Assembly (NCBI GenBank): GCA_023705945.1
Contig: BPTM01000010.1
Coordinates: 1-35,963, forward strand
Direction of reading: 5' to 3'
From: Candidatus Heimdallarchaeota archaeon
GTDB lineage: Archaea > Asgardarchaeota > Heimdallarchaeia > Heimdallarchaeales > Heimdallarchaeaceae
Length of the DNA stretch: 35,963 nt
Shown here piece after piece: positions 729 to 35,963 of this stretch. The position numbers were made by a program, and so were the translations under genes. Each line of letters opens with the position of its first letter. The stretch's first letter is position 1. The notes below the pieces were generated by a model, which searched no databases, was not told the origin of the DNA, and was given only the letters and a program-made list of their open reading frames with translations.

Positions 729-1448
729 ATGAGTATAGCAATAGTATTATTCTCTGGAGGATTAGATTCTTCCGCTTGCCTTTACTGGGCTTTGGAACAA
801 TATGAAGAGATAACACTGTTAAGTTTCAAATATGGTAGCAAAGAAGATGAAGTCATTCAAAGATTGAATCTGCTATTTGCAGAAATTTACAATTTGGAAA
901 GCAAGATTATCTCTCTAGATTTCCTTGAAGAACTCTCCTCAAAAAGAGGTTCAAAACTCGCATTGTCTGAATTGGATCCTCCTGAATTTTCTAGTTTTAA
1001 GCAACTTGATGAAAGCAAATTGACAAAAGAAACTGCAAATCAAGTATGGGTTCCAGCAAGAAACATCCTATTTATATCGGTAGCTTCAGCTTTTGCAGAT
1101 AGTTACAAAGAACCGGTTCACATCTTATTCGGTGCAAACAAAGAAGAAGCATCAACATTTCCAGACAATACTCCCGAGTTTGTAGAACGGATGAATGATG
1201 CCATTAATCTAGGTTGTTTAAACGAGGTTTCTGTTCTTGCACCTTTCAATACACAAGTAAAAAGAGAGATTATTGAGTTTTTGATTGAAAAAGAGGCAAA
1301 ATTTGAGTATATGTCTTCTTGTTATCAAGTCAAAAAATGGACCAAGGAGGGATATCCTATCCATTGTGGAATTTGTGAGTCATGCCAAAGAAAAAAGAGA
1401 GCTTTTCAAGAATCAGGGGTTTCGGATCCAACATTTTATAAGAAATAA
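729..1448 (+). CDS. queC: 7-cyano-7-deazaguanine synthase QueC
   Basis: The 239-residue protein opens with the PP-loop SGGLDSS at residues 9-15, which binds and pyrophosphorolyses ATP. It ends with the zinc site typical of QueC: C198, C213, C216 and C219 in the pattern SSC...HCGICESCQRKK. QueC converts 7-carboxy-7-deazaguanine to preQ0 using ATP and ammonia. In archaea preQ0 is inserted into tRNA by archaeosine tRNA-guanine transglycosylase. The gene lies downstream of queD on the same strand; queE is not visible in the window. Length and motifs match the family. A rightward frame at 1285-1482 is only a shadow of this gene. Confidence 0.93.
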   Translation: MSIAIVLFSGGLDSSACLYWALEQYEEITLLSFKYGSKEDEVIQRLNLLFAEIYNLESKIISLDFLEELSSKRGSKLALSELDPPEFSSFKQLDESKLTKETANQVWVPARNILFISVASAFADSYKEPVHILFGANKEEASTFPDNTPEFVERMNDAINLGCLNEVSVLAPFNTQVKREIIEFLIEKEAKFEYMSSCYQVKKWTKEGYPIHCGICESCQRKKRAFQESGVSDPTFYKK

Positions 1449-1512
1449 GGCCATTTGGAAAGCAAATAGTTTTTATTTGTAGTTCGCCTCTGTATACAAT
1501 GGGGTGAAATGT

Positions 1513-2157
1513 ATGGGCCTACGTATCTTTTCAGTTAACAAAGATGGTAGTTTTTTCGAAGTTCCATCTGAGAAAGATAGTTTTCTTCGTGGTGATGGAG
1601 CTTATTTGATTGTAGATAGAAAAGAAAAGAAGATATTCATCTATCGAAAAATGGGCATATCAAGTGTTTTGGCTTATTCAGCAGCTAGAGCAGCAACCAA
1701 CCTAAATACACAGAAGGGGTCAAGATATAGAGTCATCAATATAGAGGAGGAAGAGAAGGATCGGATACTTCCGTCACTTTATAAGAAGCTAGATGTTTCG
1801 ATTTCAAGTGAGATTAAAGAAAACAAGGAATCAGAGAGAATCTCGAGAAACATTGTTTACGGTGAAAAAACCATTCCAGTTTTTGAAACGCAAAACTATT
1901 CTCCAAGCGTCCAGACTACGAAACAAGAAAGGAAAATACAACCTATAAGAAAAATTCTTCATGTAGAGAAAGAAGAGGAGAGTTACAAAACCCAAAATAT
2001 TGATGAATTAGTTAAAACGTTAGCAAATCAGATTCTTTTTGAAACTAAATTGGACAAAGCTAAAAAAATGAAAAAACCAGCTAGACATATTCTAAAAGCT
2101 GAGATGGTTAAAAAAATAGATTCGCTATTAGATAGTATATATGAGGAAGAAAGCTAA
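1513..2157 (+). CDS. Gelsolin-like domain protein (candidate)
   Basis: I start this gene at ATG 1513 (214 aa), because GGTGA at 1503-1507 then sits five bases upstream; the GTG at 1504 lies inside that site. Residues about 27-95 have the layout of a gelsolin homology domain: a strand ending in aspartate (GAYLIVD), a second strand (KIFIYRK), a long alanine-rich helix (SVLAYSAARAATNL), then a strand (RYRVINIEEEE) and a helix. The rest is charged, probably disordered, with a basic helical end (from about NIDELVKTLA onwards). Gelsolin-domain proteins are known from Asgard archaea, where they act on actin homologues. The match is by eye and the repeat is single, so actin binding is a hypothesis. 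Its stop overlaps the stop of the convergent methyltransferase gene by four bases. Confidence 0.6.
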   Translation: MGLRIFSVNKDGSFFEVPSEKDSFLRGDGAYLIVDRKEKKIFIYRKMGISSVLAYSAARAATNLNTQKGSRYRVINIEEEEKDRILPSLYKKLDVSISSEIKENKESERISRNIVYGEKTIPVFETQNYSPSVQTTKQERKIQPIRKILHVEKEEESYKTQNIDELVKTLANQILFETKLDKAKKMKKPARHILKAEMVKKIDSLLDSIYEEES

Positions 2158-3482
2158 CTACTCTCTTTCTTCATTCTCGCAATGAAAAAACCTTCAGTTT
2201 TATGAATGTGAGGATATAACGTTTGAGTTCTATTATTCAATAGATCAGATGGTATACCAATCATTGGTGAAGCTAGCATTAAGGAAAAGTTTGAGTTGTT
2301 CTTGAGAAATTGTGAAATGATCTCATGATTTTCGTCTTCAAAAAGTGAACAGGTTGAATAAACAATACATCCATCCACTTCAAGAAGCTTGGAGGCTTCA
2401 CTAAGTAAATCATTCTGTAATTTAATATACCAGTTAAGATCTCTTTGTTTAATTCTCCATTTAATGTCAGGTCTTGAAGAATAAGTCCCTGAACCAGAGC
2501 ATGGGGGATCAAGTAGAATTTTATCAAAAGTCGATTTAACAGCAGTTTTTAGATTTCTTGCGTCTGCTGATAGAATTTTAACTTCTTCAGCACCTAACAA
2601 TTTTAATCGATTAGTTAATATTTTCACCCTTTCCTTGTTTAAATCAACTGCCAAAATATTTTTCGCAGTACCAGCTAGAGCTACAATATGTGAAGTTTTT
2701 CCCCCAGGCGATGCACACATATCAAGTATTTCCTCGTCTGGTTGTGGGTCCAGAACAAGTGAAACCAAAGCAGAAGCTTTCTGTTGCACAACAAGCTTAC
2801 CATCCTTAAATTCATCTAAGCGTGGAATTGGTACAGGTGTTTCATCAATACGTATAAGATCCGGTATAGTATCAACAGGTGTATATTTAATTTCATAGTC
2901 TGTAAGATTACCAGTAATCTCATCAAAAGATGCTTTTAGGATATTAATTCTTACATACATCGGGATACTTTCAAGGAAAGATTGTAATACTTTTTCTGTG
3001 AAATCTTCTCCCCATTGCTTGATGAATTTCCTAATTATCCAAGTGTAAGTAAAATACTTCAGAGAATATTTTGAGGGTAAATCTTCTCGGTTCTCATATA
3101 GATTTTCCTCAGTCACTGATTGGATTAATTCTAACAAAGTACAAAAAGAAATATGGGCAATGGAATGATAGTGGGGTTCAAGTATTGTAGCTACTTCATT
3201 AACTGACTTATTGTTTACTTTCAACATGTGTGTAGCTATGCGTAATAATGCCCTCATATCACTCTTTATTTTTTTAAGAGAAAAATTTGATGAACTGGTT
3301 TTTATAAAAAGATCAATCCAGTTAAGTTTTCTATAAATCTCATGAACATAATAATATAGAGTAGATTCTTCTTCTCTATCTAACTTATATTGATTAACGT
3401 GAAAGCGTAAAACATTGCGTAGAGATTTCCCTTTGTCTATATCCTCTAATGCAGATATAACTATAGGAATAATAGAATCCAT
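2154..3482 (-). CDS. RsmB/NOP2/NSUN-type RNA m5C methyltransferase
   Basis: This 442-residue protein has an N-terminal NusB-like helical region (about 1-150) and a C-terminal SAM-dependent Rossmann domain. Diagnostic motifs are LDMCASPGGKTSHI (motif I, SAM binding), LLDPPCSGSGTYS (motif IV with the PPC cysteine) and YSTCSLFEDEN (motif VI with the TC catalytic cysteine). Two cysteines in motifs IV and VI are the hallmark of RNA cytosine-C5 methyltransferases. The exact target (rRNA or tRNA) cannot be read from sequence; the NusB-like front end resembles bacterial RsmB. It is transcribed leftwards, convergent with the gelsolin-like gene, and 53 bases downstream of the Nif3-like gene on the same strand. 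Confidence 0.88.
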   Translation of the reverse strand: MDSIIPIVISALEDIDKGKSLRNVLRFHVNQYKLDREEESTLYYYVHEIYRKLNWIDLFIKTSSSNFSLKKIKSDMRALLRIATHMLKVNNKSVNEVATILEPHYHSIAHISFCTLLELIQSVTEENLYENREDLPSKYSLKYFTYTWIIRKFIKQWGEDFTEKVLQSFLESIPMYVRINILKASFDEITGNLTDYEIKYTPVDTIPDLIRIDETPVPIPRLDEFKDGKLVVQQKASALVSLVLDPQPDEEILDMCASPGGKTSHIVALAGTAKNILAVDLNKERVKILTNRLKLLGAEEVKILSADARNLKTAVKSTFDKILLDPPCSGSGTYSSRPDIKWRIKQRDLNWYIKLQNDLLSEASKLLEVDGCIVYSTCSLFEDENHEIISQFLKNNSNFSLMLASPMIGIPSDLLNNRTQTLYPHIHKTEGFFIARMKKESS

Positions 3483-3535
3483 TTCATCCCAACTCTCTTC
3501 TCAGGAAGCATAGTTTTTTTTCACTATATATTGGT

Positions 3536-4342
3536 TTAGTTGGTTAAATCATTGTTAGAAATCCAGTTTACTATCTCTTGCGGATAGAAGATTACTTTCT
3601 GCTCTACTTTCATTTGTAATAACTGTGAAAACTTTCTAAGAGCGATATTACAGAAATCCTGTATTGGCAGAAATAGGAAATTCATTTTGTTTTGTTGATA
3701 ATCCTTTAATCGTTTTGAATCTAAATTGAAACTAATCACTGTAGTAACCCCTTCCTTCTTGAGTTTCTTTAGTTCTTCCAAAGATAGTTCTTGCCTCTCC
3801 AGTGCAAAACATTCAGACTCATCCATGGATGTGTTGTTAAAAGCAGTCCATCTCTTTGTGAGATGAGAAAGATTTGCTAGGAAATCTTTGAAAGAAATTC
3901 CACTAGTCTTCCAGCTATAAATGTTGTTACTTGGAGATACGGAAACTTTGTCTTGTTTAAAGTGATTGATACCAAGAGTTTGAAGAAAGTACGCAAAAGC
4001 ACCATTTTGTGAGTACAACCAACTATTAGATAGGCTCATTGTTTTGATATTATTGGTAGTTAAAGAGCGTAATAATTCAAAATCTCGCTCAGATAATGGA
4101 AAACCATTTTCAATAATTGATAAAGGCATAATAGTGATAACCAAATTAGATTTGTTTTCATTCATCGAGTGCATAAGTCTAAGATTAGCAAATGTGGAAA
4201 CGAAAATCGTTTTTATTTTAGTAGATTTTGTAACTTTCTCAGCATAAGTTCCAAACTCAATCCCAAAATCCTTACTTCGTATAACGTCTTTATCACACAT
4301 TGAACTAAGCAATGTCAGTATCTCGTCTAAAGTTTTTGTCAT
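3536..4342 (-). CDS. Degenerate Nif3/DUF34-like protein
   Basis: The 268-residue protein follows the Nif3 (DUF34) pattern: a start resembling the family's first helix (LDEILTLLSSM), a strand that in the family reads LLITHHP (here NLVITIMPLSI), a segment like the family's Ia-vyahHt block (NNIKTMSLSNSWLYSQNGAFAYFLQTLGI), and a C-terminal half that again alternates strands and helices. The metal-binding HH of THHP is replaced by IM, and the later conserved His is Ser/Asn, so the di-metal site appears lost. The fold assignment is by motif comparison only. It precedes the m5C methyltransferase on the same strand; the function is unknown. An alternative is a diverged, unrelated alpha/beta protein. 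Confidence 0.5.
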   Translation of the reverse strand: MTKTLDEILTLLSSMCDKDVIRSKDFGIEFGTYAEKVTKSTKIKTIFVSTFANLRLMHSMNENKSNLVITIMPLSIIENGFPLSERDFELLRSLTTNNIKTMSLSNSWLYSQNGAFAYFLQTLGINHFKQDKVSVSPSNNIYSWKTSGISFKDFLANLSHLTKRWTAFNNTSMDESECFALERQELSLEELKKLKKEGVTTVISFNLDSKRLKDYQQNKMNFLFLPIQDFCNIALRKFSQLLQMKVEQKVIFYPQEIVNWISNNDLTN

Positions 4343-4558
4343 TCTAACGACATTTATGATTACAACTTAAAAAAGGATTTGGGGACTTTACTAAAAGTAA
4401 AATACTTTAAAAATGAAGAAGAGAAAAAATGGTTCTCACTTCTTTGAAACAATGGTATTAGTACATATTATCAATTTGGAATAAAGCTAAAAGAAAAGTT
4501 TTAAAACAAAAGTAAGGAAGAAAAGACGTAAGCCTAATTTGTAAGATTTACAAAGAGT
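4343..4558. other. Intergenic region between Nif3-like gene and tRNA-Ser
   Basis: This 216-base A/T-rich stretch separates the leftward Nif3-like gene from the rightward tRNA. It should hold both promoters. A candidate box for the leftward gene is the A/T run near 4366-4376, and a run TTTTAAAAC lies at about 4499-4507 upstream of the tRNA. I see no open frame of note and no strong hairpin. Confidence 0.35.
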
Positions 4559-4643
4559 GCCAGGATATCCAAGCGGTTACGGAGATGCATTGGAAATGCA
4601 TTGCCCTTGAGGCGCCGGGGTTCAAATCCCCGTCCTGGCTCCA
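4559..4643 (+). tRNA. tRNA-Ser (anticodon GGA), CCA encoded
   Basis: A full class II tRNA can be folded by hand. The acceptor stem GCCAGGA (4559-4565) pairs perfectly with TCCTGGC (4633-4639). The D arm has a three-pair stem with a loop containing GG. The anticodon stem ATGCA/TGCAT encloses loop TTGGAAA, giving anticodon GGA for serine codons UCC/UCU. The variable arm is long (GCC/GGC stem), as expected for Ser. The T arm is CGGGG/CCCCG with loop TTCAAAT. CCA is encoded at 4641-4643. There is no intron. The discriminator at 4640 is T, which is odd, since G73 is usual for archaeal tRNA-Ser. Confidence 0.95.
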
Positions 4644-4694
4644 TATTTTCTTAAACATGCTCTTGAATGATGAATATATTTTTCTCTTTTAAGC

Positions 4695-4707
4695 AAATAC
4701 TTAAAAA
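4695..4707 (+). promoter_or_regulatory. Candidate BRE/TATA for the uS13 operon
   Basis: AAATA (4695-4699) followed by CTTAAAAA (4700-4707) resembles an archaeal BRE plus TATA element. Transcription would start near 4730, leaving a leader of roughly 130 bases before uS13 that includes the folded region 4741-4839. Position is inferred from spacing only. Confidence 0.45.
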
Positions 4708-4740
4708 AATATTATCTTCTCCCTTCTTGAAGTCATTAGT

Positions 4741-4839
4741 ATCTACTATGTATAGATGCTAGGCGAAGCTCAAAGGAGATAGATATTCTCCCTTTCTACA
4801 AACTGGTAGAAAGATGAGCACCACAACTCTGGGTTGTGG
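4741..4839 (+). ncRNA. Structured leader RNA with a three-way junction upstream of uS13
   Basis: Four perfect or near-perfect helices are packed into 99 bases. P1 pairs GCTCA 4768-4772 with TGAGC 4815-4819 and closes a three-way junction. P2 pairs GGAGA 4775-4779 with TCTCC 4787-4791 (7-base loop). P3 pairs TTTCTAC 4793-4799 with GTAGAAA 4806-4812 (loop AAACTG). P4 pairs CCACAAC 4821-4827 with GTTGTGG 4833-4839 (loop TCTGG). A weaker upstream hairpin pairs ATCTA 4741-4745 with TAGAT 4753-4757. It lies between the promoter and the uS13 start. A cis-acting control element for the S13-S4-S11 operon, analogous in place to the bacterial alpha-operon leader, is the likeliest role. A separate small RNA is possible. 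Confidence 0.6.
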
Positions 4840-4865
4840 AAGAGAAAAACAAACAAAGTGATAAT

Positions 4866-5312
4866 ATGTCATTTCGCCATTTAGTTAGGATAAAGTCTAC
4901 CGATTTAGAGGGTTATTTACCTGTTTCTTTAGGACTTTCTAAGATCGCGGGTGTTAACAGAAGGTTAGCACAGACAATTGTAAAAACATTGAATATTCCT
5001 TATTCTGAGCGTATTGGTACTCTTACCGATGTAAAAGTTAAGGAAATAGAAGGAGTTATTTCTGATCCTGTTGCTGCAGGTATCCCTGTATGGATGATTA
5101 ATCGAAGAAAAGATCGCCTGACTGGTGATAATTTACACATAACAGAGGCCAAACTCATTCTTCAAACAAAACAAGATATTGAGAGATATATCAAGATTCG
5201 ATGCCGTCGAGGAATTCGCCATCAGTTTAAATTAAAAGTTAGAGGTCAAAAAACCCGAACTCATGGTAAAAGCGGTGCAACTATAGGTGTATCTAAGAGA
5301 AGACAAAGGTGA
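4866..5312 (+). CDS. rps13: Ribosomal protein uS13
   Basis: This is a small-subunit head protein that contacts the 16S rRNA and the P-site tRNA region. The 148-residue sequence has the archaeal S13 pattern: FRHLVRIKSTDLEGYLPV at the front, the HhH-like SKIAGVNRRLAQTIV, and the basic tail CRRGIRHQFKLKVRGQKTRTHG. I start at ATG 4866, with GTGAT 4858-4862 as ribosome binding site; the in-frame GTG at 4836 lies inside helix P4 of the leader and has no such site. It is the first gene of an operon with uS4 and uS11. Its stop (TGA 5310-5312) overlaps the binding site of uS4, which suggests translational coupling. Confidence 0.93.
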   Translation: MSFRHLVRIKSTDLEGYLPVSLGLSKIAGVNRRLAQTIVKTLNIPYSERIGTLTDVKVKEIEGVISDPVAAGIPVWMINRRKDRLTGDNLHITEAKLILQTKQDIERYIKIRCRRGIRHQFKLKVRGQKTRTHGKSGATIGVSKRRQR

Positions 5313-5313
5313 T
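5308..5313 (+). promoter_or_regulatory. Shine-Dalgarno GGTGAT that fixes the uS4 start
   Basis: GGTGAT ends five bases before ATG 5318 and contains the in-frame GTG 5309, which is therefore the binding site rather than the start codon. The same arrangement (GTG within GGTGA, ATG about five bases on) recurs at 1503, 26684 and 33303, and marks the species' preferred site. Confidence 0.7.
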
Positions 5314-5317
5314 TATA

Positions 5318-6424
5318 ATGGGTGGAATTAAAAGACAAAGAAAGAAAATTGAAACTCCTGGTCATCCTTATGATAAAGCTCGTTTAGAGAGAGAGCTCCC
5401 TCTTGTTGGTGATTATGGTTTAAGAAATAAACGAGAATTATGGAAAGCAAGAACTATTCTTTCTACAGCTAGACAACAAGCTAGAGGCTTACTTGCTCTT
5501 GATCCTGAAGCTAGAAAAATTCGAGAAGAAGAACTTCTTTCAAGACTCTCTCGTTTTGGCATGTTACCTCAGCATAGCAACCTTGATTCTGTTTTAGCAC
5601 TTGAAATTAAAGTCATTCTTGAAAGAAGACTTCAAACAATTGTATTCAGAAAAGGTTTAGCCTCCTCTCCTTACCAAGCTCGTCAGTTTATTACTCACAG
5701 ACACATAGCTATTGGTACTGGTATCGCAACGTCTCCTAGCAGATTAATTACAGTAGCTGAAGAGGATTTAATCAACTACGCCCCTCGTTCTCCACTGAAT
5801 GATCAAAGTCATCCCTCTCGACCTCAAGCACCTCCTGCTTTTGATGCGGGACAGCCTGAGAAAAAGGAGGAACACAAACCTAGGAGAACTAGAAGAGATG
5901 GTAAACCCAGAAGGAAAGAAGCTCCAAGGAAAGAAGCTCCAAGGAAAGAAGTTCCAAAGAAAGATGCTAAACCAGAGGTAAAGAAGGAAGTTCCAAAACC
6001 AGAGGTAAAGAAGGAAGTTCCAAAACCAGAGGTAAAGAAGGAAGTTCCAAAACCAGAAGCTAAAGCAATACCAGAAGTGAAGAAAGAGGTTCCAAAGAAA
6101 GAAGCTCCAAAACCATCAGCTAAAACAATTTCAGAAGTAAAGAAGGAAGCTCCAAAGAAGGAAGCTCCAAAGAAGGAAGCTCCAAAGAAAGAAGCTCCAA
6201 AGAAGGAAGCTAAAATCCCTGACCTTGACATCTCTTTGATAAAAGGTATTGGTGCAAAAACTGCCATGCTTCTCAAAGAAAGTGGTTTTGATACTGTTAG
6301 TAAGATTGCTAATGCAACTACTGAAGAACTTTCCAAAGTTCCAGGTGTTGGTCCCGCTACTGCAACAGCTATGAATAATGAGGCTAAAGTTTTGCTTTCA
6401 AAGAAAGCGGAGAATAAGAAGTAG
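5318..6424 (+). CDS. rps4: Ribosomal protein uS4 with Lys/Pro repeat linker and C-terminal HhH domain
   Basis: Residues 1-165 are a normal archaeal S4: MGGIKRQRKKIETPGHPYD start, then the RNA-binding S4 fold (LERRLQTIVFRKGLASSPYQARQFITHRHIAIG). S4 nucleates assembly of the 30S body. Archaeal S4 usually ends near 180 residues, but this one runs to 368. Residues about 186-298 are low-complexity KKEAPKKEVPKPEVKK repeats. Residues 299-365 form two helix-hairpin-helix motifs (IKGIGAKTAMLL and VPGVGPATATAM), a nucleic-acid-binding module. Nearly the same module ends uL24 in this window. The linker is probably disordered and basic, and the HhH may reach rRNA expansion segments or DNA; that is inference. 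It is co-transcribed with uS13 and uS11. Confidence 0.92.
   Translation: MGGIKRQRKKIETPGHPYDKARLERELPLVGDYGLRNKRELWKARTILSTARQQARGLLALDPEARKIREEELLSRLSRFGMLPQHSNLDSVLALEIKVILERRLQTIVFRKGLASSPYQARQFITHRHIAIGTGIATSPSRLITVAEEDLINYAPRSPLNDQSHPSRPQAPPAFDAGQPEKKEEHKPRRTRRDGKPRRKEAPRKEAPRKEVPKKDAKPEVKKEVPKPEVKKEVPKPEVKKEVPKPEAKAIPEVKKEVPKKEAPKPSAKTISEVKKEAPKKEAPKKEAPKKEAPKKEAKIPDLDISLIKGIGAKTAMLLKESGFDTVSKIANATTEELSKVPGVGPATATAMNNEAKVLLSKKAENKK
5972..6052 (+). repeat. Three perfect 27-base tandem repeats in the uS4 linker
   Basis: The unit 5972-5998 is repeated exactly at 5999-6025 and 6026-6052. Each encodes nine residues (PEVKKEVPK). The flanks, from 5916 to 6210, hold further imperfect copies based on KKEAP. 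Perfect identity at synonymous positions implies recent slippage or unequal exchange, and repeat number may vary between strains. Confidence 0.9.
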
Positions 6425-6431
6425 GTGAAGT

Positions 6432-7034
6432 ATGATGAGTAAAAAAGAAGAAACTAAAACTGAGGAAAAATCTAAAGATAAATCTAAAGCAAAATCTAAA
6501 GATAAAACTGAAGTAAAAGAAGAAACTAAAACTGAAGAAAAGTCTAAAGATAAATCTAAAGCAAAAGAAGAAACTAAAACTGAGGAAAAGTCTAAAGATA
6601 AAACTGAAAAAGAAGAATCTACTCAACCTACTGCCCGTCCTAGAAGAAGAGAATCTAAACACGGGATAGCACACATCTTTTCAAGCTATAATGATACAAT
6701 CATTCACATAACTGACATCTCCGGAGCTGAAACATTCAGCCGTAAAAGTGGAGGAATGTTTGTGAAAGCAGACAGAAATGAATCAAGTCCTTATGCAGCA
6801 ATGAAAGCAGCAAACGCAGCAGCACAAGAATCGCAAGCAAAAGGGATATATCAACTGTATGTAAGATATAGGGCACCAGGAGGACATAAAAATAGAACTC
6901 CAGGACCAGGAACACAAGCAGCATTAAGAGCACTGAAAAGATCAGGAATGAGAATAATAAGACTAGAAGACGTGACTCCCTTACCCCACAATGGTTGTAG
7001 GAGAAAGGGTGGTCGTAGAGGCCGCAGAATGTAA
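6432..7034 (+). CDS. rps11: Ribosomal protein uS11 with charged N-terminal repeat extension
   Basis: From about residue 74 this is an archaeal uS11 of normal length: [33 protein letters not shown] through the basic C-terminus [13 protein letters not shown]. It lines the platform of the small subunit near the mRNA exit. Residues 1-70 are an extension of repeats such as [17 protein letters not shown], highly charged and presumably disordered; typical archaeal uS11 lacks it or has about 10-20 residues. The start is ATG 6432 or ATG 6435, with GGTGA at 6424-6428. Codons change from T-ending and A-ending in the tail to strongly A-ending (gca, gga, aga) in the core. RpoD (Rpb3/Rpb11-like), the usual next gene in archaea, is absent here. 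Confidence 0.93.
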
Positions 7035-7106: not shown

Positions 7107-8261
7107 ATGAAAGTAGATGAATTCAAGTGTGATTCATGTGGTAAACATTTTACCAGAAAATATGGATTAACTCGTCACATTAAAACAGTTCATAACAAAG
7201 AGAAGAAGCATAAATGCCCTCAGTGTGGTCTCGCATTCTCAAGAAAAGACATGGTATACCGTCATGTTAGAGACGTTCATCTCGGAATTAAAAAACACAA
7301 ATGCACAGTTTGTGGTTTAAGTTTTGCTCATCTAGCACACCTTGAACGTCACATATCATCAGTTCATGATGTGGATAGAAAATTCAAATGTAGCTACTGT
7401 GGAGATGCTTTCTCAAGAGAAGATACATTAAACAGACATATAAGAACTATTCATTTAAATCTTCGACCTTATACTTGCAAGGAATGTGGAAAAAGCTTTA
7501 AGCTCCTACAACATTTACAAGAGCACTTTATTTCTCTTCATACTAACCAACGTCAATATATCTGCGAAGAGTGTGGTTTTGCCTTCAAACTTCGTCATCA
7601 CTTAAACGATCATGTCAAAGTTGTTCATCAAAATCATCGTCCTTATGCTTGTGAGGAATGTGATTCTGCATTCCCCCATTCTCGTGGGTTGAAACTTCAT
7701 ATAATTGCTATGCATACTGATGAGAAACCTTTTGTCTGCAAGGATTGTGGGAGAGGTTTTGCTGATCCTAGTCATTTGTATAAACATAAACAAGCTGAAG
7801 CTTGTTGGTTTACTACTACTACTGCATACAAGTGGGAAGAGCTTTGTAAAGAGATAGCTGAGGTTCTTTTAAAAGGTAAGAACTGGGAGTGGAAACCTAC
7901 TATAGAAACACCTGAGTTGGTTGAGCAGACTAGAGTGCAACCTGAGATAGTTATCTATAATGATGATGGTACGATGGATTTTATCGATGCTAAGAGGTCT
8001 ACTTATGCTATCTACAAGGAAAAGGATCTGGTAGTTTATCCAAAAGTGGCTAGGAAGGTGGAGTTCTGGTGTCTCTATGGCAAAACCAAGGGATTGTTTG
8101 AAGAGGAGGAAATGATAGAAGGAAAATCAAGTAAAGAGATAATAAATGAACTAAAACAACAAAGATCTGAAGAAAAAAAGAAAGAAATAGACGCAATAAT
8201 TATGAAAATTTTGCTCCTTAAAAAAGGAATTGAATATAATAATCAAACACAACTGATCTAA
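7107..8261 (+). CDS. Eight-finger C2H2 zinc-finger protein fused to a PD-(D/E)XK-like nuclease domain
   Basis: The 384-residue protein begins with eight tandem fingers at an exact 29-residue period: residues 8-29, 37-58, 66-87, 95-116, 124-145, 153-174, 182-203 and 211-233. Fingers 1-7 are classic C-x2-C-x12-H-x4-H with the conserved Phe and Leu; finger 8 ends in Cys (C2HC). The linkers are seven residues and the last reads TDEKPFV, close to the eukaryotic TGEKP linker. After a helix (KWEELCKEIAEVL), residues about 265-330 look like a restriction-endonuclease core: QPEIVI (E280), a turn, FIDAKRS (D294, K296 as the D-x-K site), then KVEFWCLYGK. A charged coiled tail (333-375) follows. Sequence-specific DNA cleavage, like an engineered zinc-finger nuclease, is a hypothesis. 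The alternative is a regulator with an inactive nuclease fold. Confidence 0.82.
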   Translation: MKVDEFKCDSCGKHFTRKYGLTRHIKTVHNKEKKHKCPQCGLAFSRKDMVYRHVRDVHLGIKKHKCTVCGLSFAHLAHLERHISSVHDVDRKFKCSYCGDAFSREDTLNRHIRTIHLNLRPYTCKECGKSFKLLQHLQEHFISLHTNQRQYICEECGFAFKLRHHLNDHVKVVHQNHRPYACEECDSAFPHSRGLKLHIIAMHTDEKPFVCKDCGRGFADPSHLYKHKQAEACWFTTTTAYKWEELCKEIAEVLLKGKNWEWKPTIETPELVEQTRVQPEIVIYNDDGTMDFIDAKRSTYAIYKEKDLVVYPKVARKVEFWCLYGKTKGLFEEEEMIEGKSSKEIINELKQQRSEEKKKEIDAIIMKILLLKKGIEYNNQTQLI

Positions 8262-8280: not shown

Positions 8281-9105
8281 TTATACCTCAACTATCTTTC
8301 TTATTTGTCTGTAACATGAAATACAAGCAGGTTTGTCTGTTGACGTTTTTATAGTGTATCCACAAATATGACAAAATTGACCTTTAACAGCTCCTTTTTT
8401 CTTGTCTTCCCAACAATCCTTGCATCGAACAACATGAAGCTTTTTCGGTTTATTGATGTCTATCTTTATTTCATTTCTACAAACGATACAAAAACCAAGG
8501 TGCTCTTGATTCTCTGATTTCAGAGTATATTTGCCATTAGTTTCAGAATATTTTAGTTTAATAGAACCAGAAGTCTTTGTACCAGCTAAGATTTCCTCAC
8601 CCATATCCATTAGCAAATTGATATAATTCTGGATATATCGAAGACTTTCTTCATCACTCTCACCTTGGAAATCTACACCAATTTCAAAATTTTCACTTGC
8701 TGAATGATAATAGAGATTCATTGAAGATACTAATGCTCTATTTCCATTGAAGTAACACTTAGCATGAAGATCAGGAACCAGCCACACCTTATCCGCATAT
8801 TTTTTCAACTTGTTCTTAATTTCTGTTATTTCGGTTTTGTTTTTTGGTTTCCTAGTAATAAAAACAATATTAATACCGTTTTTCTTTGTTAATTCTAAAC
8901 CTTGTATCAGGGTAGACCATATCTTATCATTCTTTTTTGTAAATTTGATATATGGACTAACCAGAAATAACTCCTTTTCCGCGTTTAAAACAATTTCTTC
9001 AATTGCACCAGTTAATGAGCTTGTACTTGAGCATACTTTCAAACATATCACCATTCCCTTAAAGGCTTTAACACATGCAAATATAAGTTCTTTGGTTAAT
9101 TTCAT
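8281..9105 (-). CDS. PLD-like (HKD) protein with two C-terminal zinc ribbons
   Basis: Residues about 30-165 match the phospholipase D nuclease fold: ELFLVSPYIKF, then INIVFITRKP, then the single HKD-type site LHAKCYFNGNRALVSSMN (H114, K116, N130) and NFEIGVDF (E141). One HKD per chain means the active form should be a dimer, as in the Nuc and BfiI nucleases. Residues about 205-262 carry four CxxC pairs (CIVC, CKDC, CHIC, CISC), two zinc ribbons likely to bind DNA or RNA. It is convergent with the zinc-finger nuclease gene, 19 bases apart, and divergent from the next nuclease-like gene. The start is ATG 9105; M18 is an alternative. Phospholipid hydrolysis is unlikely given the zinc ribbons and context. 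Confidence 0.75.
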   Translation of the reverse strand: MKLTKELIFACVKAFKGMVICLKVCSSTSSLTGAIEEIVLNAEKELFLVSPYIKFTKKNDKIWSTLIQGLELTKKNGINIVFITRKPKNKTEITEIKNKLKKYADKVWLVPDLHAKCYFNGNRALVSSMNLYYHSASENFEIGVDFQGESDEESLRYIQNYINLLMDMGEEILAGTKTSGSIKLKYSETNGKYTLKSENQEHLGFCIVCRNEIKIDINKPKKLHVVRCKDCWEDKKKGAVKGQFCHICGYTIKTSTDKPACISCYRQIRKIVEV

Positions 9106-9177: not shown

Positions 9178-10074
9178 ATGGAAAATAAACCGTTTATAAT
9201 TGAAGAAATAATTGAAGAGAAAAAGGAAGAATATATTAAGAAAATTGCAAGACAAGCTGGTTCAACTGAATATAAAAGTAGAAAGATATTCGATAATTTA
9301 GGTTATAGTGTAGATGAATTAATTTATGAAGACAAGGAATGGGAAACCATAAGGGTGGTGAAGAAAAATAGACAGTTAGATGTTTTTGCACAAAAAGAAT
9401 TCAAGCATGAAGAATTTGAACCAGGACATACGGGATATTTAATGACGGGGTTAACATTTTATGGAGATGTAAAGTACAATGATCGGTATGATAAACAGGA
9501 AAAAGAACCAATAATTGGTTTTAATCCTATTGAACTCTACAATTATAGTGTAATGAATATTTTCAAGAATTGGACAGGTTTTGATCGGATCTATGAGTTT
9601 ATGTATGGAAATTTAACTGAAAAATTCGCGTCATTGATTTGTAAAGATATAATCTATCCATCTAAGGAAAATGAGATTAAAAATAAAATAAAGAAAGGAT
9701 TCAATCAAGTAGTATCCAGCATAAACTGGCATATGAAGGTGAGATATGGTAATAGATATCCAATAAGCAGACAAAAATCCCTTACAGTAGCAGGTGATTT
9801 ATGTATTCCAATTATTATTCTTGGACGTAAATTTGACTTATTGTCCTATGTTTTTGAAGAAGATATTGATTCTGGAAATCTTTACAAAACCAAATTTTTA
9901 ATTCATCCTTATCAATTAGTAGAAATTAGAGATAATGTATTATCGAAAAGATCACCATATGTTCCAATGGTTATAACAACTCTAGAATGTCTTGAAGACA
10001 CAATAAAAATAATTGAAAACACAGTGATACCCCTTGCTATGAAATTTCATGATTGGCAATGTAGCAAATCTTGA
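9178..10074 (+). CDS. Unknown protein, possible PD-(D/E)XK nuclease fold
   Basis: I do not recognise the family of this 298-residue protein. The first 110 residues read like a restriction-endonuclease core: a helix (EEYIKKIARQAGSTEYKSRKIFDNLGY), a strand, RQLDVFAQ with D68, and a strand YGDVKYND with D97-V-K99, giving the D...D-x-K pattern with a 28-residue gap. The rest (110-298) is helical with aromatic clusters and has no motif I can name. It starts 72 bases from the divergent PLD-like gene and faces the NERD gene. Its place among nuclease-like genes supports, but does not prove, a role on DNA. Base composition is as AT-rich as its neighbours. Confidence 0.5.
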   Translation: MENKPFIIEEIIEEKKEEYIKKIARQAGSTEYKSRKIFDNLGYSVDELIYEDKEWETIRVVKKNRQLDVFAQKEFKHEEFEPGHTGYLMTGLTFYGDVKYNDRYDKQEKEPIIGFNPIELYNYSVMNIFKNWTGFDRIYEFMYGNLTEKFASLICKDIIYPSKENEIKNKIKKGFNQVVSSINWHMKVRYGNRYPISRQKSLTVAGDLCIPIIILGRKFDLLSYVFEEDIDSGNLYKTKFLIHPYQLVEIRDNVLSKRSPYVPMVITTLECLEDTIKIIENTVIPLAMKFHDWQCSKS

Positions 10075-10150: not shown

Positions 10151-11221
10151 TTACCTTCTTCGAATATAATTTGCAATTCTCTCAACTTCTTTTGATGAAA
10201 ACGTTTCTTCGAAATAAAGGATATAACTAACTATCTCCTTTAGATGAAGCACCTTAACAAATTGAAATTGTTCCTTAGGCTTAGCATTGGTCATAAGAAG
10301 AATGTTACGGAGAGTTATCTTCTTTTTACCCCAATGATGAGAATTAAGACGAAGAGAACCATTATTGACTAATTTATTTAGGTGGAAAAAAAGCGCAAAA
10401 TTAGCTCTTCTTATTTGCTGTACCGGTGAAAAAAGGTTTAGGTTTTGCAGAGATTCCTTGCTCCAGTTTTTTGTTTCAATTAGAAATAGACCAGGAGGAC
10501 CAATGAAAATATGATCAACTTGAATAGAATTTATTTTTTTCAATTCTTTACTATAAGGAATGTATTTATCTGGGAATGTTTTCTTAAAATCGTTGATTAG
10601 AATAAAAGAATCTGGTAATTTGGTTAATTCCTTAATAGCTTCTTGTTCCCCTATAGCTCCAGCAAGAAGAGTGTATTTAGCATCTAATGTGATTTTGATA
10701 TGATTTATTTTCTCTACGTGAGCTCTTGAACGTCTTGTTACTAGTTGATCAAAATTAGTTTCACGATAAATTGCATCCTGTTCAAGCTTCTTAATTTTTT
10801 TATTCCGATTTCGAAAAGGTTTCTCAACTTCATCTGTAAAACTATGTGTCAATCTAGCAAGCCTTTTGAAAGTCTGATAGAGCTTAATCTTATTGTAGAC
10901 GAATTTGAAGGGGTTCTTTGTATTACTGGAATACTGAATAATTTTTGATGGAAGCTGTTCTTTTTCCTCATGTAGCTCCTTGGTTCTATCTGAAATCAGC
11001 TGTTGATATTCATTTAAACGAGAATTATGATCGGATTTAATCTTTTCAATTTCATTGAGGAGTTTCTTTTCCTGCTCTTCTTGATGTTGCTTTATTAAAC
11101 TCTTCCAATTCTTTTTGAAATCAAGAATGGGTTCAAGAGTAGCAAAGTCGTCAATTCCCTTCTGTCTTAATTCCAGTAACAAATCTTTTAGAACACCAGA
11201 ACCACCATACATTCTAACCAA
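10151..11221 (-). CDS. NERD-domain protein with long N-terminal coiled coil
   Basis: Residues about 185-300 of this 356-residue protein carry the nuclease-related domain: AGAIGEQEAIKEL (the GxxGE start of NERD), FILINDF, IQVDHIFIGPPGLFLIETKNW (Asp, then E-x-K, the nuclease-like acidic triad). NERD is a PD-(D/E)XK-related fold. Residues about 40-180 are charged heptads (QEEQEKKLLNEIEKIKSDHNSRL and so on), a probable coiled coil. The start TTG 11221 is supported by GGAGA at 11227-11231, five bases upstream; ATG 11212 is the alternative. It is convergent with the preceding unknown gene. NERD proteins are frequent on plasmids and in defence islands, but no precise activity can be given. Confidence 0.8.
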   Translation of the reverse strand: MVRMYGGSGVLKDLLLELRQKGIDDFATLEPILDFKKNWKSLIKQHQEEQEKKLLNEIEKIKSDHNSRLNEYQQLISDRTKELHEEKEQLPSKIIQYSSNTKNPFKFVYNKIKLYQTFKRLARLTHSFTDEVEKPFRNRNKKIKKLEQDAIYRETNFDQLVTRRSRAHVEKINHIKITLDAKYTLLAGAIGEQEAIKELTKLPDSFILINDFKKTFPDKYIPYSKELKKINSIQVDHIFIGPPGLFLIETKNWSKESLQNLNLFSPVQQIRRANFALFFHLNKLVNNGSLRLNSHHWGKKKITLRNILLMTNAKPKEQFQFVKVLHLKEIVSYILYFEETFSSKEVERIANYIRRR

Positions 11222-11433
11222 ATTAATCTCCTATCCAACACAAAGGAAAGCAATCTATCTTAATAAAACTTGTCGTGAGCCGTTAATATGGTAATTTTGG
11301 GGGGAGACTGCAAAACGTAGATCCTTCTTTTATCATTTCTTTATTTTTTTACTTTCATTTTTGTAATATTTGGGTTTTTAATTTAGTTCGCTAGTATGCA
11401 AAAAGATACGCTCGAAAAAGCAATAAAACAAAG
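11222..11433. other. Intergenic region upstream of the NERD gene
   Basis: These 212 bases hold the NERD ribosome binding site at the left end and, at 11340-11380, a T-rich tract (on the plus strand) resembling the tracts after 7045, 10105 and 12005. A G6 run lies near 11298-11303. I see no open frame or strong fold. Confidence 0.3.
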
Positions 11434-11868
11434 TTAGAACCTATGCTTGATTGTCTCTATTATTGTCTGTCCTACTATTTCTCCCTCCGGTCCATTAACT
11501 ATAACGTGGATTGTAAATTCAAACGTATACCTTACTCCTTTCTCAAAGTTCCCTTCTAATTCAATGGTTCTTAGACTAGTGTAACTAACATTCAAAGGTA
11601 GACTGGGGGAAGCAGTGAATGTAGCTAGCGGATCACAGTTTATTTCAACAATAGAGATGAAATTATTAAAACTCACTATTTGAAAACTTATTCTTCTGCT
11701 AGTTCCTAAATCCTCAGAATCTTCAACAGATATATCCAAAGTATCAGGTTCACTAGCTAGCCATGTCTTAATACCTAACCAGGTACCTAGTCCTATACCT
11801 GTAGCAACTAAAATAACAATAAAAAAGATGAGTAGTTCCTTTTTCCCTATCTTTATGTTAATCTCCAT
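11434..11868 (-). CDS. Small membrane-anchored protein, unknown
   Basis: The 144-residue protein has a short basic N-terminus (MEINIKIGKKE), one hydrophobic segment at residues about 12-33 (LLIFFIVILVATGIGLGTWLGI) and a soluble part of about 105 residues rich in beta-strand residues (SFNNFISIVEINCDP, NVSYTSLRTIELEG, YTFEFTIHVIVNG). The basic-in pattern places the beta domain outside the cell. An Ig-like or similar beta-sandwich is plausible, but I cannot name a family. GAGGA precedes the ATG. It lies on the same strand as the Imm5-like gene, 189 bases away, so co-transcription is uncertain. Confidence 0.65.
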   Translation of the reverse strand: MEINIKIGKKELLIFFIVILVATGIGLGTWLGIKTWLASEPDTLDISVEDSEDLGTSRRISFQIVSFNNFISIVEINCDPLATFTASPSLPLNVSYTSLRTIELEGNFEKGVRYTFEFTIHVIVNGPEGEIVGQTIIETIKHRF

Positions 11869-12057
11869 TGTCCTCTGTAGCTGTTTGAAATTTCTCCTTT
11901 AAAGATTTTTTGAATAAAATTCAGAAACTTAAATGATTTGTATATAGGATGGTTTACCAGACAGGTATGAAATTTCTTGCGTGAATACAATTATTAGACG
12001 TCGTAGAATGTAAGTTTTTTACATTTTTACTCTTTTTTATTTCATTTTTGTTAGTTG
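11869..12057. other. Intergenic region between the membrane protein and Imm5-like genes
   Basis: 189 bases, A/T-rich. A T-rich tract at 12009-12055 reads as a rightward terminator although no rightward gene lies before it. A short rightward frame ending in RRRRM-stop near 11995-12012 recalls the end of uS11 but shows no further similarity. No other feature seen. Confidence 0.3.
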
Positions 12058-34451: not shown

Positions 34452-35206
34452 TTCTTATCACCTTCGTTACCAGCAATCGTCACACTTGGAACATCATTAC
34501 CTACAATGAAAATATATCTGAACAATGTTACGAAAATCGCACCATCAGGAGTTCTTATGGTCGCTGTTTTAGTTTTTTGTTTTCCATGAGAACTGATTTC
34601 TTCAATGGTTCCATGTTTACCCATCCACCTACCACTAGTTACAATACCATAATTACCGATTTTCAATTCATATTTTTCTAAAATCTTTTGATCGGGTAAA
34701 GATATCTTAACTGTGTCATGTGTATGGTAAGGAACACTATCACTTTCTGTTTTCTGTAAGATGATGTTTCTACCATCATGGAGATTTAATTGTGTTAAAC
34801 CTCCTTTGAGTGTGGTCTTATTCGTAATCTGGCAGAGTTTAACTTTTCTCTCATCATCCTTAATCGGAATTGTCCTTAGGCCTCTCTTTGGTGTATATAC
34901 TAGTCTATAATGTTCTTTTATTTTGGGGAAGGAAATAACATCCATGAAACCTAGTGGGTATTTTCTGTTTGTTTTTATTCTTCCATCTACGAGAACATTT
35001 CGTTCAACCAGTATACGTTTAACTTCACTCATGTTTCGGGCCACTTGGAACATATCACGGAGCATAATAGCCATAGGGATACATTCATGTGCAGCATGAG
35101 GACCAGGGGAGGGTCTAACGGTATAAGTATTGGCTTTCTTTTCAATAGGTATGTGTTTTGAAACAACAAACCTCTTTAAGTGTCGCTTTCCACCGCCTTT
35201 TGTCAT
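34448..35206 (-). CDS. rps4e: Ribosomal protein eS4
   Basis: The 252-residue protein matches archaeal S4e: HLKRFVVSKHIPIEKKANTYTVRPSPGPHAAHECIPMAIMLRDMFQVARNMSEVKRILVERNVLVDGRIKTNRKYPLGFMDVISF (S4-like RNA-binding part), central domain, then a KOW region (KIGNYGIVTSGRWMGKHGTIEEIS). It overlaps both neighbours by four bases, linking uL24 and uL5. Length is normal, with no extra extension. Confidence 0.95.
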   Translation of the reverse strand: MTKGGGKRHLKRFVVSKHIPIEKKANTYTVRPSPGPHAAHECIPMAIMLRDMFQVARNMSEVKRILVERNVLVDGRIKTNRKYPLGFMDVISFPKIKEHYRLVYTPKRGLRTIPIKDDERKVKLCQITNKTTLKGGLTQLNLHDGRNIILQKTESDSVPYHTHDTVKISLPDQKILEKYELKIGNYGIVTSGRWMGKHGTIEEISSHGKQKTKTATIRTPDGAIFVTLFRYIFIVGNDVPSVTIAGNEGDKK

Positions 35207-35963
35207 GCTGATTCCTCCTTTTCATGTGCCTTCTTAGAAAGCAGATCTTTTGCATTAATACTCATGGTTTCTGCTGTACCAGGACCGATACCAGGTACTT
35301 TTGAAAGTTCTTCAGAGGTTGCTTTGGCAATCTTGTCAACAGTATCAAAACCATTTTCTTTGAGAAGCATTGCGGTTTTAGCACCTATGCCCTTAATCAT
35401 AGATATGTCGAGGCCAGGTACTTTAGTCTCCTTCTTGGGAGCTGCTTCTACAACATCTTCAGTAACATCAGTTTCATCAAGATCTTCGAATTCTTCAAAA
35501 ACATCCTCTTCAAGGTCCTCATCTTCAACTTCAACATCGGATTCTTCTAAAGGTTCATCGAATTCATCAAATAGATCTTCAGTCAATTCTTCTTCGGTAA
35601 CTTCTTTTCTAGAACGTCTTTTAATAATCTCTCTTCTCTTTTTGTCACGTAAATTCAGAGAAGTGATTATGATGTTGCTTGGATGAATAGGATAGCTAGA
35701 GATTGTACCATCAGCTTTTTCCTTACTATGTCCTTCAATATGAACTGAATATTTCTGAGGCAAAACACGGAGTACTTTACCTTTAATCTCTTGATCTTCA
35801 GATTTAGCTCTGAATACTATTACTTTATCATCTTTATGTACAGGAAGACGTCGAACGCCATATTTATCTCTCAACTCGCGTGAGAGAAGAGCGGTCATTT
35901 GACGATTACGGAGATGTAAAGGAGCATTATAATACCTCTTACGTTGTTTGCGAGGTTGTTTTG
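35203..35963 (-). CDS. rpl24: Ribosomal protein uL24 with acidic linker and C-terminal HhH domain (5' partial)
   Basis: The frame stays open to the window edge. Reading on upstream of M at 35898 gives KQPRKQRKRYYNAPLHLRNRQM, the normal archaeal L24 N-terminus, so the true start lies just outside and the gene is cut. The L24 body follows (ALLSRELRDKYGVRRLPVHKDDKVIVFRAKSED...KGKVLRVLPQKYSVHIEG, KOW). After it come a long acidic stretch (about 35430-35590, rich in Glu/Asp) and an HhH domain (35221-35424) almost the same as the one on uS4: IKGIGAKTAMLLKE, VPGIGPGTAETM. Archaeal L24 normally stops after the KOW body. It overlaps eS4 by four bases. Confidence 0.92.
   Translation of the reverse strand, partial: KQPRKQRKRYYNAPLHLRNRQMTALLSRELRDKYGVRRLPVHKDDKVIVFRAKSEDQEIKGKVLRVLPQKYSVHIEGHSKEKADGTISSYPIHPSNIIITSLNLRDKKRREIIKRRSRKEVTEEELTEDLFDEFDEPLEESDVEVEDEDLEEDVFEEFEDLDETDVTEDVVEAAPKKETKVPGLDISMIKGIGAKTAMLLKENGFDTVDKIAKATSEELSKVPGIGPGTAETMSINAKDLLSKKAHEKEESA

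Follow-up and report, generated by a model that had tools for sequence, protein, structure and literature searches.

Introduction

T4 carries 12 free-standing homing endonuclease genes that lie between conserved genes, and their spread has been termed 'intronless homing' (PMC2988022). PD-(D/E)XK is one of the six known homing endonuclease families (PMC6083498), and an intron-encoded homing endonuclease hosted by the cytochrome b gene is known to tolerate variation at wobble positions (PMC3943268). A survey of mobile elements in Heimdallarchaeum describes a homing endonuclease element next to the 16S rRNA; zinc fingers are not mentioned in it, as judged by a word search (PMC8813620). No description of a natural zinc-finger nuclease (ZFN) homing element was found in the literature that we searched, with most subscription journals lying outside its scope.

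The DNA analysed here, referred to as the window, is a stretch of 35,963 nucleotides from a Candidatus Heimdallarchaeota archaeon (contig BPTM01000010.1). An initial annotation, made from the letters alone, had proposed that one of its open reading frames encodes a natural ZFN with a restriction-endonuclease-like core and a site suited to sparing the host. We find that the gene most probably (with a rough probability of 0.8) encodes a homing-type, free-standing nuclease that belongs to a mobile element and from which its host is protected by recoding of the target and by a shield protein.

Results

Eight zinc fingers joined to a probable nuclease domain

The open reading frame encodes 384 amino acids, eight C2H2 fingers followed by a C-terminal domain. 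Its coordinates are those given in the initial annotation, and the eight fingers on a 29-residue period, also noted there, are borne out by Pfam matches (zf-H2C2_2, E 1.4e-46; zf-C2H2, E 4.2e-39) and by the spacing of the C1 residues (8, 37, 66, 95, 124, 153, 182 and 211; a period of exactly 29). The fingers show the C-x2-C-x12-H-x3-5-H pattern with its Phe/Leu core; finger 8 is C2HC-like (HLYKHKQAEAC). The features of the gene are as follows.

7107..8261, + strand: zinc-finger nuclease (ZFN), eight C2H2 fingers (residues 6-235) and a PD-(D/E)XK-like C-terminal domain (residues ~240-384)
7122..7811, + strand: finger array F1-F8, contacts at -1/2/3/6 RYGR RDMR HAHR RDTR LQHE LHHD HRGL DSHK
7836..7838, + strand: E244 (helix A, WEELC), unchanged across 23 homologues; codon placed by counting along the reading frame
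7941..7997, + strand: putative catalytic core QPE(280)IVIYNDDGTMDFID(294)AK(296)RS, from homologue conservation

Given that the gene follows uS13-uS4-uS11 on an Asgard contig and has orthologues at the same place in independent Heimdallarchaeota MAGs, it is not eukaryotic contamination. The reading frame encodes no reverse transcriptase. Arg at contact positions -1 and/or 6 of fingers 1-4 had been pointed out in the window, and across 16 orthologues these residues prove invariant apart from position -1 of finger 3, which is Gln (His in the window), and a single Thr at position 6 (finger 2, G015). Position 3 of these fingers is variable, and no positive selection is detected at finger position 3, where pN/pS is at most 0.91 and never above 1.

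In the C-terminal domain, E280, D294 and K296, singled out earlier as candidate catalytic residues, are present, and a conservation check across 23 homologues recovers the motif E...(P)(D/E)-x(10-30)-(D/E)xK to which they belong. E244, P279, E/D280, D/E294 and an invariant K296 are kept (E8, P43, E/D44, D/E58 and K60 of alignment A1), and FWCL is invariant. Single homologues match RmuC (E 0.0016) and VRR_NUC (E 0.075), and full-protein alignments place these matches on the putative catalytic segment. AlphaFold model 1, of low confidence (pLDDT 60), yields mostly PD-(D/E)XK matches; its top PDB matches are EcoO109I, Bax1, McrC, R2 (structure 8iby, Foldseek match 5) and EndoMS, with a best E of 0.014. 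A trimmed second model gives no nuclease match and no match at all, and a PDB sequence search gave nothing useful. The same nuclease domain also stands behind DUF4379 treble-clef arrays (L025, L027, L023) and behind HNH_repeat arrays (L028), HNH_repeat being named for homing endonucleases. The natural fusion to a C2H2 array holds, and for its partner the term 'probable' PD-(D/E)XK nuclease is apt, with the motifs in favour and weak fold evidence from the models. The assignment, which rests on motifs and weak matches, is likely but not proven, and we consider it very probable that the domain has nuclease activity.

Other members of the family vary in their arrays. DUF4379 arrays are also fused to the nuclease domain at L045, L046, L047 and L048. 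In a third array type (L028 / L108:2133-3845, G011:C64) the domain comes after six or so HNH_repeat (PF18780) units; the target of this version (L028) was not found. A 386-aa protein of G043 (L068:1357-2514) is a very distant relative of the nuclease domain, with PDF..VEAK and a match to DUF790 (E 0.0066), which we take to be the Bax1 nuclease family.

Distribution and gene order at the uS11 locus

Whether the fusion recurs in other Asgard genomes, a point raised in the initial annotation, is answered by a search of 228 of them: orthologues are found, and of the 21 genomes in the genus of the window 19 have the C-terminal domain, as do three others of the Heimdall class. The named records are all Candidatus Heimdallarchaeota MAGs, AB_125 among them, and no relative was found on viral contigs. 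The comparison set comprises 17 genomes with the ZFN. Nine of these also have the gene of a small protein (125-149 aa) with 4-5 C2H2 fingers and no nuclease domain; the other eight, that of the window among them, are without it. Wherever the contig reaches upstream, the order is uS11, the small finger protein gene (in the nine genomes), ZFN; the genes downstream vary. Two members of the genus, G003 and G017, have neither gene and present empty sites, with other genes directly after uS11. The inserted block of the window contains the following.

6432..7034, + strand: uS11 (rpsK), the target gene, which by gene order bounds the inserted block on the left
8281..9105, - strand: cargo, PLD-family protein with zinc ribbon, DrmC-like by profile match (DrmC E 2.8e-12)
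9178..10074, + strand: cargo, 298-aa protein, PD-(D/E)XK-like by eye (..QLDVFA..GDVKYN), with a homologue that adjoins the ZFN in the G012 element
10151..11221, - strand: cargo, protein with a NERD domain (E 3.4e-10), present in the G007 element too
11434..11868, - strand: cargo, 144-aa protein with a homologue inside the G015 element

The PLD protein resembles DrmC of DISARM, is convergent with the ZFN gene, and is found again in several elements. The uS11 element of G007 also contains an rve-family transposase (L032:8168-9094) alongside PLD and NERD cargo. Reading of the neighbouring genes and a partial Pfam scan found no cognate methyltransferase among them. Elsewhere in the window, uS4 (5309-6424) and an ORF that looks like uL24 (35203-35898) share a near-identical C-terminal helix-hairpin-helix extension (SxIKGIGAKTAMLLKExGFDTVxKIA...).

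The best predicted target is a run of conserved uS11 codons

By the textbook finger code, fingers 1-4 predict 5'-GNG GNA GNG GNG-3'. The code as used here is approximate. The fixed contacts of the 16 orthologues yield the pattern GNGGNAGNGGNG, which was recorded and searched before uS11 was examined, and this pattern is the antisense of ACN CCN CTN CCN C, the conserved uS11 codons T-P-L-P-H. Because finger triplets and codons run in a common 3-bp register, helix position 3 always faces the wobble base. In F5, F6 and F8, where the wobble base is a purine on the antisense strand, position 3 is nearly always His; at F1-F4 and F7, where the wobble is four-fold, it is variable. The Asp at -1 of finger 8 faces C.

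6976..6999, - strand: predicted recognition site of the ZFN within uS11 (antisense of the T-P-L-P-H-N-G-C codons; F8..F1), rank 1 of 71,880 window positions

The site lies ~107 bp upstream of the start of the window ZFN. In a scan with the simple code the resident uS11 site takes rank 1 at 13 of the 14 loci and rank 2 at the remaining one, G007; in a control with shuffled finger order the site falls to median ranks of 774-5,608. One scoring rule (Leu at -1 reads T) was picked post hoc, and without it the ranks are 1-8 in all loci. By this prediction, the best target of the ZFN is a run of conserved codons in the essential gene that it adjoins. The initial annotation had expected a G-rich site, rare in the genome and hence suited to sparing the host. 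The G-rich site is supported; the rarity is not, with about 10-40 framework sites in each genome and the host's own uS11 as the best match at the locus. Whole-genome counts of the framework site are lower in the forward than in the reversed control orientation, but the control contains the recurrent GCGGGGAGGGAG and we make no claim of avoidance.

Duplicated gene ends mark the insertions

Comparison of the occupied site of G012 with the empty site of its sister G017 reveals an overlap of 60 bp, with a second copy of the uS11 tail and flank on the far side of the ZFN and a 300-aa gene. Remnants of the uS11 tail lie downstream in G010, G015, G002, G007, G011, G005 (two), G009 and G008, and further ones in G012, G001 (two) and G018, which makes 11 genomes besides the window. 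The window itself has two degenerate copies.

11326..11386, + strand: copy of the uS11 3' flank, 89% over 57 bp (E 6e-15 against the G003 empty site), candidate inner right end
11996..12051, + strand: degenerate copy of uS11 tail and flank (AGACGTCGTAGAATGTAA..), E 8e-7 against the G017 empty site, candidate outer right end

No uS11 remnant is found in G019, G004 and G006, nor in G014 and G020, where the sequence examined ends soon after the ZFN. The aligned remnants begin 5-27 nt past the finger-8 edge and never include the predicted site; the break is always on the nuclease side, which would fit cleavage at that point by the domain that follows finger 8. The uS11 tail itself (GGYCGTAGAGGCCGYAGAATGTA, window 7011-7034) is conserved at the nucleotide level, wobble positions included, across most of the genus, except for recoded tails in G001, G014, G006, G018 and G020.

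The element is polymorphic for presence and absence, with intact empty sites at uS11 in G003 and G017. In AU tests of clades that were chosen after the trees had been seen, the ZFN tree rejects G012+G020 (p 2.6e-5) and the SecY tree rejects G014+G006 (p 4e-4). This conflict between the ZFN and SecY trees indicates that the element moved between species.

Related insertions at fixX and PIG-L

At the fixX 3' end, G011 has a second ZFN (L105:4371-5525), in which the same nuclease is joined to fingers of the TGEKP type; the protein encoded next to it (415 aa) is of no known family. About 88 bp of the fixX end are repeated at the opposite end of the insert. In a code scan of 10.5 kb of G011 (20,956 positions), the 4Fe-4S codons of fixX (CLECATC) take rank 1 and the remnant copy takes rank 2, and here too the duplication breaks off at the finger-8 end of the predicted site. 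In G008, a DUF4379 version with an in-frame stop adjoins a PIG-L gene whose 5' end, including the AHPDDE motif, is duplicated. In the sequence examined, no flanking duplication is found at the DUF4379 copies of G012 and G001 or at the HNH_repeat copy. The finger proteins of G055 and G057 lie on contigs that are too short for such comparisons.

The duplicated ends bear on the possibility that an unlinked integrase recognising the uS11 tail placed the element, the ZFN being a passenger. Direct repeats of 17-60 bp do resemble att sites. Yet the ZFN is the sole gene common to all elements, the window block is without a visible integrase gene, and in both uS11 and fixX the breaks flank the predicted site at its finger-8 end, which leaves placement by an integrase highly improbable.

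Resident sites are avoided by the nuclease and matched by the small protein

Matches at the wobble bases were counted by a strict position-3 code (N-A, H-G, K-G, S/A/V-T, D-C). Small finger proteins match the wobble bases of their own genome at 31 of 34 positions, compared with 14.1 in permuted pairings (p 0.00015), and when each of five clusters is reduced to one representative, none of the 120 possible pairings beats the true one (p 0.008). For the small proteins of G019, G010 and G002, the predicted 12-mer is found a single time in the genome concerned, in uS11. The ZFNs, on the other hand, match their own wobble bases at only 2 of 36 positions, where 10.6 are expected (p 1e-4), which is avoidance. 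In other sampled genomes the wobble haplotypes predicted for the ZFNs show no excess above chance. Judged by this depletion of own matches, the resident uS11 allele is predicted to resist its own ZFN. The small finger protein, by its matches, would seem to shield the resident site.

The Leu codon of the target is a second candidate for self-protection.

6981..6983, + strand: uS11 Leu codon TTA; the 5' base of the finger-2 triplet changes from G to A, with loss of the predicted Arg6-G contact; self-protection candidate

This codon is TTR in 7 of the 8 ZFN genomes without the small gene and CTN in 8 of the 9 with it (Fisher p 0.003), an association that on the SecY tree is found in only 3 of 4 independent pairs, with G012 and G007 as exceptions. 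In G007, uS11 has TTG, and finger 2 of the small protein carries Lys in place of Arg at position 6. No unlinked shield of the right make-up was found in genomes without the small gene, the matches being ZFN arrays and one 30-residue fragment. Self-protection appears to come about by synonymous recoding of uS11 and, in half of the genomes, by a small protein matching the self site.

A toxin nuclease directed at the resident uS11, with the small protein as antidote, would form an addiction module in which homing is secondary or absent. The shield matches self in nine genomes and its loss tends to accompany the TTR codon, as such a module would have it. But the ZFN already mismatches self, the shield is missing from half of the genomes, and insertion scars and tree conflict point to movement, so that we regard addiction as unlikely. 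It is quite improbable that the ZFN and the small protein instead regulate the uS11 operon, with a C-terminal domain that is structural or inactive. Strict placement after uS11, a best site within it and a small protein that co-varies with its own site would suit an autoregulator, whereas avoidance of the own site by the ZFN (2/36) is the opposite of what a regulator should do; in addition, the catalytic-type residues are kept in 23 homologues over three kinds of DNA-binding array, and the insertion is marked by duplicated gene ends.

Defence against foreign DNA by a restriction-like enzyme, for which uS11 would be one site among many, is the reading closest to the initial annotation. PLD/DrmC-like and NERD proteins, both present as cargo, occur in defence contexts. 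A restriction enzyme is nevertheless the least credible reading, given the missing methylase next to it, a 24-bp specificity for a single conserved run of host codons, the finger-order control together with the unique 12-mers, and a second family member that aims at its own neighbour, fixX. The evidence favours a homing or mobile element, with protection apparently through uS11 recoding and the finger protein.

Discussion

The architecture of the ZFN, its predicted site, the matched and avoided wobble bases, the duplicated gene ends and the movement between species are read from the sequences. From these we infer how a homing-type element would cut, spread through repair and be shielded from itself. 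The eight fingers would bind about 24 bp, the antisense of the uS11 codons T-P-L-P-H-N-G-C, with helix residues -1 and 6 reading the first two bases of each codon and residue 3 reading the wobble base. The PD-(D/E)XK-like domain, beside finger 8, would then cut uS11 just 3' of the site, and repair from the element-bearing chromosome would copy in an intact uS11 end, the nuclease and the cargo. The old uS11 tail from the original insertion would be left as a remnant at the far end. Resident uS11 would be spared because its wobble bases, and often a CTN to TTR change of the Leu codon, give a mismatch with the nuclease; a finger protein that has no nuclease and matches the resident site almost exactly probably shields uS11 as well in nine genomes.

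A broader reading, to which we give slightly better than even odds, is that of a natural cleave-and-rescue system, in which a ZFN cutting the codons of an essential gene is joined by a linked, recoded copy and by an antidote that tracks the wobble bases, and in which the family swaps C2H2, DUF4379 and HNH_repeat arrays against different conserved genes. If the homing reading is true, Asgard archaea possess a natural zinc-finger nuclease whose target can be read off; finger code, codon register and wobble arms race would allow that target to be tested base by base. A compact nuclease domain would be at work behind three kinds of DNA-reading array, archaeal C2H2 arrays would gain a concrete role in genetic conflict, and evolution would have used the logic of synthetic gene-drive designs.

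Several known systems share part of this arrangement. Like the PD-(D/E)XK homing endonucleases, the ZFN has their probable catalytic class and role. The known members of that family are small, intron-associated proteins without finger arrays, and the ZFN differs from them in having one. R2-type retrotransposons join N-terminal C2H2 fingers to a restriction-like endonuclease, and the ZFN resembles them in its fingers, its restriction-like nuclease and its insertion in a conserved host gene; it differs in being without a reverse transcriptase, in its protein-coding target and in reading in codon register. Artificial ZFNs (a C2H2 array with FokI) have the same domain order and logic, whereas the present protein is natural, uses another nuclease family and is paired with a nuclease-free twin. 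The synthetic Cleave-and-Rescue design also sets a nuclease against an essential gene with a linked recoded copy (PMC7951863); here the arrangement is natural, the nuclease is a single gene, and the insertion is of homing type. As in the free-standing homing endonucleases Seg and Mob of T4, the gene is intergenic beside its target, its distribution is patchy, the resident allele is unmatched and the target is conserved (PMC2988022). Unlike Seg and Mob, the ZFN element combines a C2H2 reader with a PD-(D/E)XK-like cutter and a shield protein, and it resides on an archaeal chromosome where the old gene end is kept as a remnant.
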